A stretch of 64,000 nt of DNA, taken from positions 1 to 64,000 of the forward strand of contig NZ_FNWK01000001.1 of NCBI RefSeq assembly GCF_900108295.1. The letters run 5' to 3'. The DNA comes from Sphingopyxis sp. YR583 (lineage in GTDB: Bacteria > Pseudomonadota > Alphaproteobacteria > Sphingomonadales > Sphingomonadaceae). The notes beneath the pieces are model-generated. The model was not told the DNA's origin, searched no databases, and saw only the letters and a list, made by a program, of their open reading frames with translations. The stretch's first letter is position 1; every line of letters begins with the position of its first letter. Made by a program: the position numbers and the translations under genes. Shown here in pieces: positions 50,776 to 63,605 of this stretch.

Positions 50776-51963
50776 TTATGCGGTCGGCTTCCCTTGTGCG
50801 GCAAGGACACGCAAGATATTGCCGCTCCACATCTTTTCGATGTCCGCGTCCGAATAGCCCGCGGCCTTCAGCCGCTCGGTGACCTTGGGCAGCGCCGAAA
50901 TATCCTCGAACCCCGGCAAGCCGCCGCCGCCGTCCCAGTCGGCGCCGAAGCAGATGTGGTCGACGCCGCCGACCTCGATCGCGCGCAGCACCATCTTCAT
51001 ATAGCCGTCGAAATCGGCCGCCCAGAGCTTCTCGGTCTTGTCGAGTTCGCGCCACTGGCGGTTGAGGTCAGCCTGCTCGGCGGGCGTGATCTGACCGATA
51101 CGCTCATATTTTCCGAACAGTTCGGCGCGCGCCGGCGACATGTTCATTTCCGACATGAAAATCGTCGAGATGCACATCGCCCCGCCCTTCGCCGCAAGCG
51201 CTTTCAAGCGGCCTTCGTCGAGATTGCGCGGATGGTCATAGGCCGAGCGCAGGCTCGAGTGCGAGAGCAGGATCGGATATTTCGACAGCGCGAGAATCTG
51301 GTCGAACGCGGCATCGGACGAATGGCTCGCATCGATCACGATGCCTAGGCGGTTCATCTCGGCGACCCACTGCTTGCCGAGCGGGCTCAACCCCTTCCAG
51401 CGTCCCTCGCCCGTCGCACTGTCGGCAAACTGATTGTCCTTCGAATGGACAGGCCCGGCAAGGCGCAGGCCCTTGTCGTAGAACTCCCGCAGCAGCGACA
51501 GGTCTTCGCCGAGCGGATAGCTGTTCTCCATCGACTTGAAGGCAATGAGCTTGCCTTCCTTGTTCAGCCGCAGCGCGTCGGCCGCGGTCAGCGCGGGCGC
51601 GATCGTGCCGGAATTCGCCGCGATGGTTTTGTCGATCAGGTCCGAGCGTTTGCGCGCGAAGGCGAGCGCGTCTGCATAGCCCTTCGGCGTCAGCGGTCCC
51701 TGATCGGTATAGATGGCGAAGAAGCCGCCATCGAGATTGCCGTCCTTCATCCGCGGAATATCGAGCTGCGCCATATCGTCGGCGAGCGCATGACGATCGG
51801 CGAAGCTCCAGCCCGCGCGCTCGAAGTGGAGCGGCGTGTCGAGATGCGTATCGAGCACGAGCATCCGGCTGTGCAGCGGCGCCTCGGCTGCCTTCGGCTT
51901 GTCCTCGCCGGTCGAACAGGCGGTGAGCGCGGTTGCGGTCAGCAATATGGCAAAACGCTTCAC
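50776..51963 (-). CDS. M19 membrane dipeptidase lipoprotein
   Basis: A 395-residue renal-dipeptidase-type metallopeptidase. Lipobox LTAC gives lipid-anchored C16, so it faces the periplasm. Two-zinc site: LDTHLDTPLHF (H40, D42), E in AFKSMENSYPLG, H in VIDASHSSDAA, H in ILLSHSSLRS and D in CFGADWDGGGG. The family splits dipeptides, often with a D-residue at the C-terminal side. It starts at GTG 51963, overlapping the serine hydrolase stop by GTGA. Last gene of the five-gene operon with the TonB receptor and dgcN. Confidence 0.93.
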   Translation of the reverse strand: MKRFAILLTATALTACSTGEDKPKAAEAPLHSRMLVLDTHLDTPLHFERAGWSFADRHALADDMAQLDIPRMKDGNLDGGFFAIYTDQGPLTPKGYADALAFARKRSDLIDKTIAANSGTIAPALTAADALRLNKEGKLIAFKSMENSYPLGEDLSLLREFYDKGLRLAGPVHSKDNQFADSATGEGRWKGLSPLGKQWVAEMNRLGIVIDASHSSDAAFDQILALSKYPILLSHSSLRSAYDHPRNLDEGRLKALAAKGGAMCISTIFMSEMNMSPARAELFGKYERIGQITPAEQADLNRQWRELDKTEKLWAADFDGYMKMVLRAIEVGGVDHICFGADWDGGGGLPGFEDISALPKVTERLKAAGYSDADIEKMWSGNILRVLAAQGKPTA

Positions 51964-61910: not shown

Positions 61911-63605
61911 ATGGCATTGCGTCGGTCGTTCGCCCCTTCCCTGATGCTGCTCTGCAGTTCGATGCTGCTACCGGCATCGGTCGCCGCGAAACCGGCCTAT
62001 GACCTGATCATCCGTGGCGGGACGATCTATGACGGATCGGGCAAGGCGCCGGTCGTCGGTGACGTCGCGATCAAGGACGATCGCATCGTTGCGGTCGGCA
62101 AGGTCGACGGCACGGCAAAGACCGAGGTTACGGCAAAGGGCATGGCGGTCGCGCCGGGGTTCATCAACATGCTGAGCTGGGCGACCGAGTCGCTGATCGC
62201 CGACCCGAAAAGCCAGAGCGACATCCGCCAGGGCGTTACGCTGGAGGTGATGGGCGAAGGCTGGTCGATGGGTCCGATGAACGCCACGATGAAGCGGCTG
62301 GAGACCGAACGACAGGGCGACATCAAATATCCGATCGAATGGACGAGCCTCGGCGACTATTTCAACTGGCTGGAAAAGCGCGGGGTATCGACCAATATCG
62401 CGAGCTTCGTCGGCGCTGCGACGGTCCGCGTCCATGAACTGGGCGAAGGCGACGTCGATCCGGACCCCGAACAGCTTGCGCGGATGCGCACGCTCGTCAA
62501 ACAGGCGATGAACGACGGCGCCATGGGCGTCGGCAGCTCGATCATCTACGCGCCCGGCTCTTATGCCGAAACCGACGAGCTGGTCGCGCTGACGAGCGAA
62601 GCGGCGAAATGCGGCGGCATGTACATCAGCCATATGCGGTCCGAAGGCGACCGGATCGAGGAAGCCGTCGACGAGCTGATCGATATCTCCCGCCGATCGG
62701 GGGCACCGGCCGAAATCTACCACCTCAAAATGGCGGGCCGCAGCAATTGGGGCAAGCTCGACACGATCGTGAAAAAGATCGAGGATGCCCGCGCCGAAGG
62801 GCTGAAGATCACGACTGACATGTACACTTATACCGCGGGCGCGACGGGGCTCGACGCCGCGATGCCGACATGGGTGCAGGCGGGCGGGCTCGAGAAATGG
62901 ATCGAGCGGCTGAAAGATCCTGCGATCCGCGCGCGCGTCGCCGCCGAGATGAAGCAGCCCGGCAACAATTGGGAAAATCTCTATTTCGGTGCGGGCGCCG
63001 ACAAGATGATCCTGTCGGGGTTCAAGAATGACGCGCTGAAGCCGCTGACCGGCAAGACGCTTGCCGAGGTTGCTGCGATGCGCGGCAAATCACCCGAAGA
63101 AACCGCGATGGACCTCGTCGTCGAAGATGGGTCGCGCGTCGGCACCGTCTATTTCCTGATGTCCGAGGACAATGTGCGCAAGCAGATCCAGCTCCCGTGG
63201 ATGAGCTTCGGGTCCGATGCCGCGTCGCAGGCGGCCGAGGGCGTCTTCCTGAAATCGGGTGCGCATCCGCGCACCTATGGCAATTTCTCGCGCCTGCTCG
63301 GTCGCTATGTCCGCGACGAGAAGCTGATTTCGCTCGAACAGGCGGTCTACCGCCTCACCACCCTGCCCGCGAGCAATCTCGGCATCAAGGATCGCGGCGC
63401 GCTCAAACCGGGCTATTATGCCGACGTCGTGGTTTTCGATCCCGCGACGATCGGCGATCGTTCGACCTTCGAGAAGCCGCACCAATATTCGGTCGGCATG
63501 CGCGACGTCTTCGTCAACGGCGTCGGCGTGTTGCGGAACGGCGAACATAGCGGCGCGACGCCCGGGCGCGCCGTGCGCGGTGCGGGCTGGAACCGCTGCT
63601 CCTAG
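61911..63605 (+). CDS. D-aminoacylase-like amidohydrolase lacking the HxH motif
   Basis: A 564-residue exported amidohydrolase (signal peptide 1-26) of the N-acyl-D-amino-acid deacylase family. DLIIRGGTIYDGSGKAPVVG and the end GYYADVVVFDPATIGDRSTF are typical. H241 (ISHMRSEGD), H271 (EIYHLKMAG) and D436 (SFGSDAA) are kept. The HxH pair that should follow PGFI is replaced by NMLSW (L88 and W90), and the usual bridging cysteine of the GNCG block is glycine with E116 beside it. It may use one metal in an altered site. It shares an operon with the XRE-cupin gene. Confidence 0.88.
   Translation: MALRRSFAPSLMLLCSSMLLPASVAAKPAYDLIIRGGTIYDGSGKAPVVGDVAIKDDRIVAVGKVDGTAKTEVTAKGMAVAPGFINMLSWATESLIADPKSQSDIRQGVTLEVMGEGWSMGPMNATMKRLETERQGDIKYPIEWTSLGDYFNWLEKRGVSTNIASFVGAATVRVHELGEGDVDPDPEQLARMRTLVKQAMNDGAMGVGSSIIYAPGSYAETDELVALTSEAAKCGGMYISHMRSEGDRIEEAVDELIDISRRSGAPAEIYHLKMAGRSNWGKLDTIVKKIEDARAEGLKITTDMYTYTAGATGLDAAMPTWVQAGGLEKWIERLKDPAIRARVAAEMKQPGNNWENLYFGAGADKMILSGFKNDALKPLTGKTLAEVAAMRGKSPEETAMDLVVEDGSRVGTVYFLMSEDNVRKQIQLPWMSFGSDAASQAAEGVFLKSGAHPRTYGNFSRLLGRYVRDEKLISLEQAVYRLTTLPASNLGIKDRGALKPGYYADVVVFDPATIGDRSTFEKPHQYSVGMRDVFVNGVGVLRNGEHSGATPGRAVRGAGWNRCS

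Follow-up and report, generated by a model that had tools for sequence, protein, structure and literature searches.

Sphingopyxis sp. YR583 carries nine adjacent genes that could serve the use of D-amino acids, and they raise two questions: whether they form one unit, and which substrate that unit serves. The genes lie at 50776..63605 of a 64,000-nucleotide stretch (the window; positions 1 to 64,000 of contig NZ_FNWK01000001.1). They code for a TonB-dependent receptor, a DgcN-like protein of family DUF1611, a carrier, two S12 serine hydrolases (SH1 and SH2), an M19 dipeptidase, a DgcA-like epimerase, an XRE-cupin regulator and an amidohydrolase. An earlier note, written from the sequence alone, had read them as an integrated locus for scavenging D-glutamate. 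Comparison with related genomes showed that the linkage of the genes exceeds chance and that they are one conserved unit. We give about even weight to a reading in which this unit would be a dedicated regulon for D-residue peptides or capped compounds, converting a non-acidic, most likely hydrophobic (Leu/Phe-like), D-amino acid to its L-form.

Conservation of the unit and its shared motif

All nine genes were present, and Pfam and NCBIfam assigned them to the families first described, except for the carrier, which matched no model. The junctions were as previously described. A 20-base gap separates the stop of the TonB gene (55725) from the ATG of the DgcN-like gene (55704), four-base overlaps join DgcN to carrier, carrier to SH1 and SH1 to M19, and TGATG at 59142 is common to SH2 and the DgcA-like gene.

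The own genome (G000) consists of 4,312,099 bases in five contigs, with the window at C1:1-64000. A DgcN match was found in 44 of the 60 genomes searched (own included), and 29 of the 35 congeners had a DgcN with 80-95% identity to that of the window. Window-type loci were compared for 26 of these 29 congeners (27 loci; G017, G025 and G030 were left out). The recurring order was NAD-XRE / SH2-DgcA-M19'-TonB-DgcN-carrier-SH1-M19, where NAD is the close amidohydrolase and M19' a further M19 gene. SH2, DgcN, carrier and SH1 were each kept in 27/27 loci, and M19 in 26/27, the remaining locus being cut by a contig end. DgcA-like and XRE genes were each present in 25/27 loci, and the close amidohydrolase stood beside XRE in 16/27, with two further loci ending too early to show it. 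M19' lay between SH2/DgcA and TonB in 26 of the 27 loci; the window is without it. On one contig (G031:C45), two copies of the locus (L032 and L033) were found in opposite orientation.

Named genomes were scanned for the best 80 loci. Among the matches listed, named genomes of Erythrobacteraceae, Blastomonas, Sphingomonas and Novosphingobium also held the window unit, and its gene families recurred in altered arrangement in Rudaea, Dyella, Luteimonas, Peristeroidobacter and Povalibacter (Xanthomonadales and Steroidobacter groups). Most of the named sequences listed as close to the DgcN-like and DgcA-like proteins belong to Sphingopyxis. The earlier note had made its reading depend on linkage in relatives, and such linkage was found in the 27 loci of 26 congeners and in other genera.

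In the divergent spacer between XRE and SH2, a footprint was nearly constant while the flanking proteins diverge. The core pattern (TTGACANTTYTYYRATYAGGAYMATWRT; 28 bases with -35-like and -10-like ends, up to three mismatches allowed) matched exactly two sites in the 4.31-Mb genome, P1 and P2 (Table 1). P1 precedes SH2-DgcA, and P2 precedes TonB-DgcN-carrier-SH1-M19. The reversed pattern gave 0 matches in the own genome. With up to three mismatches, no match was found at the three paralogous loci of the genome (A, C and D, described below); simply shuffled sequence (1.5 Mb, one strand) gave none either. Both sites were present in 27/27 congener loci, P2 with at most two mismatches; the pattern was drawn from the window and the congener loci, so good matches there arise partly by construction, unlike the lack of a third genomic site. 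The XRE gene adjoins P1 in most loci that carry XRE. A common operator motif stands before both main transcription units and nowhere else in the genome, as would be expected of a single regulon, and the integrated unit proposed earlier was borne out by both synteny and this private promoter/operator motif. Among the matches listed, no description of this gene set was found in the titles and abstract starts of the open-licence literature.

Table 1. Features of the locus in window coordinates; for SH2, DgcA-like, TonB, DgcN-like and SH1 the upper coordinate is the refined start
Feature	Position	Strand	Evidence
M19 dipeptidase, lipoprotein (lipobox LTAC read by eye)	50776..51963	-	Pfam PF01244, E 3.4e-87; H-x-D present
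SH1, exported serine hydrolase, S12/beta-lactamase fold with DUF3471	51960..53531	-	Pfam; SxxK, YxN, HGG
YkvI-like carrier (name from the earlier note)	53528..54667	-	predicted LeuT/APC-type fold
DUF1611 protein, DgcN-like	54664..55704	-	NF041892, 442 bits; 7xrj, E 1.8e-99; Ala49, P-loop GTDCALGKK
TonB-dependent receptor	55725..57926	-	Pfam PF00593/PF07715; one of four types at the slot
P2, putative promoter/operator 5' of TonB-DgcN-carrier-SH1-M19	58089..58116	-	TTGACATTTTTCCGATTAGGACAATAGT
DgcA-like enolase-superfamily epimerase	58138..59142	-	NF042940, 360 bits; loop ISGHVFT
SH2, S12 serine hydrolase	59142..61121	-	Pfam PF00144; SxxK, YxN, HGG
P1, putative promoter/operator between divergent XRE and SH2	61217..61244	-	TTGACAATTTTCCAATCAGGATCATTAT
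XRE-cupin regulator	61252..61887	+	Pfam HTH_3, Cupin_2
Amidohydrolase, D-aminoacylase clan, N-terminal signal-like stretch	61911..63605	+	1rjp/1m7j, E ~4e-70; 3gip, E 1e-66

Comparison with the canonical DgcN-DgcA pathway

Yu et al. reportedly described a DgcN-DgcA pathway for D-glutamate in ISME J in 2023. The window resembles it in holding both enzyme families in one locus, presumably for N-acetylation followed by racemisation. Four DUF1611/DgcN loci were found in the own genome, and the NCBIfam equivalog cut-offs are 480 bits for DgcN (NF041892) and 400 bits for DgcA (NF042940). Locus A, on contig C3, has the order LysR-DgcN-DgcA-SDF dicarboxylate symporter with a divergent amidohydrolase, and its DgcN (518.6 bits) and DgcA (435 bits) are both over the cut-off. 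Locus B is that of the window, where both cut-offs were missed (DgcN 442 < 480; DgcA 360.4 < 400). Locus C (C4) consists of XRE-cupin, S12, DgcN (457), carrier, alpha/beta hydrolase, amidohydrolase, S12, DgcA (378) and a further amidohydrolase. Locus D (C1, about 492 kb; L007) consists of TonB, M19, DgcN (438), two S12 hydrolases and an amidohydrolase.

D-glutamate appears to be handled by the separate canonical locus on C3, and the window was set aside as the D-glutamate locus of the genome, locus A being the one that fits the canonical pattern. The window pair differs from the canonical pathway in belonging to a divergent subfamily under both cut-offs. The own canonical locus has LysR and a dicarboxylate symporter, whereas the window has the XRE-cupin gene with its private operator motif and a carrier of predicted LeuT/APC type, and adds a receptor and exported hydrolases. 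The pathway is cited in PMC12363236 and PMC10845958.

Among 115 alphaproteobacterial genomes drawn (own included), 29 had a DgcN over the cut-off. Weaker matches came from the own B, C and D proteins (438-458 bits), from G150 (467) and, as a partial sequence at a contig edge, from G123 (146). Loci were taken from 19 of the 28 over-cut-off genomes other than the own, plus the under-cut-off G150. In the DgcN tree of 129 rows, rooted at the midpoint and with several long branches, the six A-labelled rows and the solved relative 7xrj stood together with two rows on long branches. The other 120 rows formed a separate group that contains B, C and D, and support for this split was 87.

All 7 A-side rows, 7xrj among them, had Arg at DgcN position 49 (numbered from the TTG at 55728, with the gene start taken as the ATG at 55704), and 114 of the 119 others had Ala. 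Three P-loop positions read S-V-M in 7/7 A-side rows and A-L-K in 119/119 others; L057, L061 and L064 were left out of this comparison and included in the pair table below. The features of most canonical rows and of 7xrj (Arg49 and P-loop GTDC-S-x-GKM) are replaced in the window by Ala49 and GTDCALGKK, and one locus with a DgcN over the cut-off (L171) has Val49.

In DgcA, the N-terminal loop read ISRGV[RK]T in the canonical rows of the own order, and the last of the variable places was aromatic in nearly all B and C rows (e.g., ISGHVFT), with exceptions such as L121, L122 and L064, which have Ile. Printed alignments placed Arg at this position in 4gfi, 1jpd (L-Ala-D/L-Glu epimerase) and 3iji, and Arg or Lys was found in 19/19 loci with over-cut-off DgcN from other alphaproteobacteria; the window protein has Phe, unlike 1jpd. 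We take this residue to be Arg24 of the B. subtilis L-Ala-D/L-Glu epimerase, presumably binding the Glu side chain. In the portions retrieved, the residue terms gave no match in PMC3605383, and the residue was not present in PMC13338154.

For the pair table, 148 distinct DgcN sequences, including 20 loci from other alphaproteobacteria, were each combined with the nearest DgcA; the enolase protein of L054 is counted there and belongs to a different subfamily. The residues at DgcN position 49 and the DgcA loop vary together, with Arg-Arg in 15, Arg-Lys in nine and Ala-Phe in 91, and no DgcA was present in the stretch for 20 sequences with Ala49, two with Arg and one with Val. Since the basic residues are absent from both the DgcN- and the DgcA-like protein, the simplest reading is that two consecutive enzymes would lack a contact for an acidic side chain.

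Scavenging of D-glutamate from peptidoglycan or poly-glutamate peptides through DgcN and DgcA, the function given to the locus in the earlier note, is improbable. The best NCBIfam models for the pair are indeed DgcN and DgcA, and 7xrj is the closest solved relative of the former; however, both enzymes fall under the equivalog cut-offs, a canonical locus lies elsewhere in the genome, the basic residues are absent from both proteins, and the dehydrogenase beside some related loci (see below) is Leu/Phe-like. What stood of that reading was an integrated, conserved unit with receptor, exported hydrolases, carrier and DgcN/DgcA-like pair; D-glutamate as its substrate was not supported.

The names that NCBI gives to close homologues of the DgcA-like protein suggest another function, 'dipeptide epimerase'. 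The enzyme would then act on dipeptides taken up by the cell whose C-terminal residue is neutral, the DUF1611 protein would not be an N-acetyltransferase, and the locus would serve peptide-epimerising scavenging. The D-x-D motif (VDLDGP) is kept in the window protein, a POT oligopeptide symporter occurs in some related loci, and DUF1611 has a P-loop domain, which fit this alternative. We consider it unlikely, if still a serious candidate: the window protein scored 360 bits with NF042940 against 236 with the L-Ala-D/L-Glu epimerase model, the predicted fold group of the carrier includes amino-acid transporters, and an AstE/AspA-like protein in a related class, with a match just under its cut-off, fits an N-acyl intermediate.

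Proposed route and side chain

In the proposed regulon for a non-acidic D-amino acid, the XRE-cupin protein would control the two similar promoter/operators P1 and P2. The TonB receptor would carry the substrate across the outer membrane, the S12 hydrolases and the M19 lipoprotein would free the D-amino acid in the periplasm, and the LeuT/APC-type carrier would import it. In the cytoplasm, the DgcN-like enzyme would N-acetylate the D-amino acid, and the DgcA-like enzyme would racemise the N-acetylated product to its L-form, which would then be deacetylated and catabolised. The window enzymes fall short of the cut-offs that define the families from which this chemistry is predicted.

The hydrophobic side chain is suggested by the neighbours of related loci. 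In 16 of 144 loci, the unit has a dehydrogenase of the Glu/Leu/Phe/Val (ELFV) family and an Lrp/AsnC regulator as neighbours, arranged in two ways or more. Each of these loci has the carrier and SH1 of the window, as do 91/144 loci overall; the 144 include 18 groups of identical DgcN DNA (refetched records and L032/L033), with none of the 16 among them. The nearest solved relative of the dehydrogenase was leucine dehydrogenase (E 8.7e-85), followed by tryptophan and phenylalanine dehydrogenases, and glutamate dehydrogenase gave 1.5e-26. Its best NCBIfam model was tryptophan dehydrogenase ScyB, far under the cut-off (266 vs 600).

Several observations weigh against the proposed regulon or its hydrophobic substrate. 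No deacetylase gene was recognised in the locus, and binding of P1 and P2 by the XRE-cupin protein is presumed from position alone. The DgcA-like gene is missing between SH2 and M19' in 2/27 congener loci (L014 and L017, which recur as L074 and L085), and no DgcA was found in the 20 kb read at locus D; a DgcA from another locus may serve loci without their own. The residue pattern is phylogenetically clustered, its rows being related and not independent events, and the pair table holds exceptions: Arg-Phe (2), Arg-Leu (1), Arg-Ile (1), Val-Lys (1), Ser-Tyr (1), Ser-Phe (1), Ala-Ile (2) and Ala-gap (1). The ortholog of the dehydrogenase in the own genome is unlinked (C1:455282), and the dehydrogenase lies within about 6 kb of a window-type DgcN in only 2/29 congeners (G007 and G012); the hydrophobic reading therefore draws chiefly on other genera and on a small number of species. 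Finally, an SDF symporter lies a few kb downstream in 7/27 loci (L009-L013, L015 and L016).

The SDF symporter was rejected as a member of the unit. In L009 it lies behind a sigma-54-type response regulator and a sensor kinase, a pair that we take to be DctBD-like, and no SDF match was found in 44001-64000 of the own window.

Beyond this substrate, we tentatively suggest, with somewhat less than even confidence, that DgcN and DgcA form, rather than a single D-glutamate pathway, a chassis (N-acetylate, racemise, deacetylate) that was duplicated in sphingomonads, the copies being turned to different side chains. The four DgcN loci of one genome each have their own surroundings, and related classes stand beside different catabolic genes. 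By class, these neighbours are a dicarboxylate symporter, a Leu/Phe-type dehydrogenase with Lrp, and a threonine-aldolase-like protein, in one case with an AstE/AspA-like protein; circumstantially, they suggest re-aiming by side chain. The window version would hold an N-acetyltransferase and racemase of the DgcN/DgcA kind for neutral D-amino acids, and we know of no report of such enzymes. In a metagenome survey (PMC12363236), dgcN is counted as a key gene of D-glutamate breakdown (acidic D-amino acid and amide). If the subfamily under the cut-off has other D-amino acids as substrates, these counts could combine more than one activity, and bacteria would have a more general route from D- to L-amino acids via N-acetyl intermediates.

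Further genes were observed beside related loci. An RpiR regulator was present in 5/5 loci of another DUF1611 class (L050-L053 and L059), with a beta-eliminating-lyase/threonine-aldolase-type protein in L051, L052, L053 and L059 and the AstE/AspA-like protein in L050. The POT-family oligopeptide symporter was found in L112, L121, L122, L124, L127, L136, L144 and L146, and more weakly in L055 and L060, mostly beside the YkvI-like carrier; some of these loci are without the carrier.

Receptor slot, exported hydrolases, carrier and amidohydrolase

Among 28 loci (the 27 and the window), the median pairwise identity was 58% for the TonB receptor, with a minimum of 36%, and 83-89% for the other genes; the amidohydrolase also had outliers, with a minimum of 29%. 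Linked at 65% identity, the receptors at the slot fell into four types. Window and near kin (L009, L013, L069 and L071) shared 88-91% DNA identity on both flanks of the slot, and from 58089 to 55763 of the window they aligned only in short pieces at 66-72% or not at all. The receptor stretch of the window aligned at 78-84% with seven other congener loci. Because of these sharp DNA breakpoints and the other congeners that match across the slot, the receptor, with or without M19', seems to have been exchanged while the enzymes stay.

Receptor types for different ligands would also fit a locus for a specific non-ribosomal or other D-residue natural product, such as a siderophore or a cyanobacterial peptide. 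The best NCBIfam match of the receptor was a siderophore-receptor model (under the cut-off), four receptor types occupy one slot, one relative is Sphingopyxis microcysteis, and the S12 matches include ClbP, which we take to be a D-Asn-releasing peptidase. Against it, no direct link to any compound was found, and the enzymes keep their 83-89% median identity while the receptors vary, so the released product seems constant; we regard this explanation as very improbable. The private two-site motif and the variable receptor slot with constant enzymes render the system directly testable and well suited to matching outer-membrane receptors to ligands.

A 2012 survey found a TonB receptor beside a D-aminoacylase gene in the gammaproteobacterium NOR5-3 (PMC3400609). 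As in the window, gene context there ties a TonB receptor to the use of N-acyl-D-amino acids; the difference is that in NOR5-3 it is one adjacent gene, and the retrieved portion of the survey describes no DgcN/DgcA-like pair or operator.

The exported hydrolases had the features of their families. The M19 protein matched the Pfam model of membrane dipeptidases and has the H-x-D motif, and its closest solved chain was the dipeptidase 2rag (E 1e-123). SxxK, YxN and HGG/KTG-type motifs of S12 enzymes were present in SH1 and SH2. Besides beta-lactamases and esterases, solved S12 matches included alkaline D-peptidase, ClbP and D-amino acid amidase, with 7spn (IS11) and the ClbP peptidase as the best for SH1. 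The C-terminal segments of SH2 are hydrophobic and of membrane type, as read by eye from the translation.

The carrier had no Pfam or NCBIfam match and no solved relative by sequence search. An AlphaFold model (pLDDT 87.8, 32-row alignment) was compared by Foldseek, and the YcsG model came first, followed by Nramp, BasC, MhsT, AdiC, LAT1 and others (E 1.7e-5 to about 1e-4). This fold group holds amino-acid carriers (BasC, MhsT and LAT1) and also Nramp metal transporters and others, and assignment of a substrate from the fold was dropped because the likeness is too broad to name one. Recurrent open frames such as L130/10747 and L106/12147 overlie the carrier and SH1 on the opposite strand; they look antisense and were rejected as genes.

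The amidohydrolase had been called a D-aminoacylase homologue. Homology to D-aminoacylase (1m7j) and N-acyl-D-glutamate deacylase (3gip) does extend over most of its length; the canonical assignment fails on the metal ligands, which we take to be H-x-H, Cys, two His and Asp in D-aminoacylase. Printed alignments with D-aminoacylase placed PGFINMLSWA of the window-type protein where D-aminoacylase has PGFIDSHTH; H-x-H and Cys are lost (three of six ligands), and two His and Asp are kept. On these sequences, the name D-aminoacylase does not suit the window protein. Since D-aminoacylase needs a single metal for its function, activity of the window protein remains conceivable. The amidohydrolase of the own locus A keeps DPHTHA. 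Among the amidohydrolases of this clan without H-x-H, the replacement motif differs between the B class and the C and D classes: NMLSWA, the window type, occurred 39 times, and D-M-M/L-D-Q/H-S, the C/D type, 32 times (matches including duplicates).

Tail to tail with the amidohydrolase gene stands a gene for an MPAB/Lcp-type oxygenase, which covers 63602-64000 of the window and runs on to C1:64501 (L008:3603-4502).

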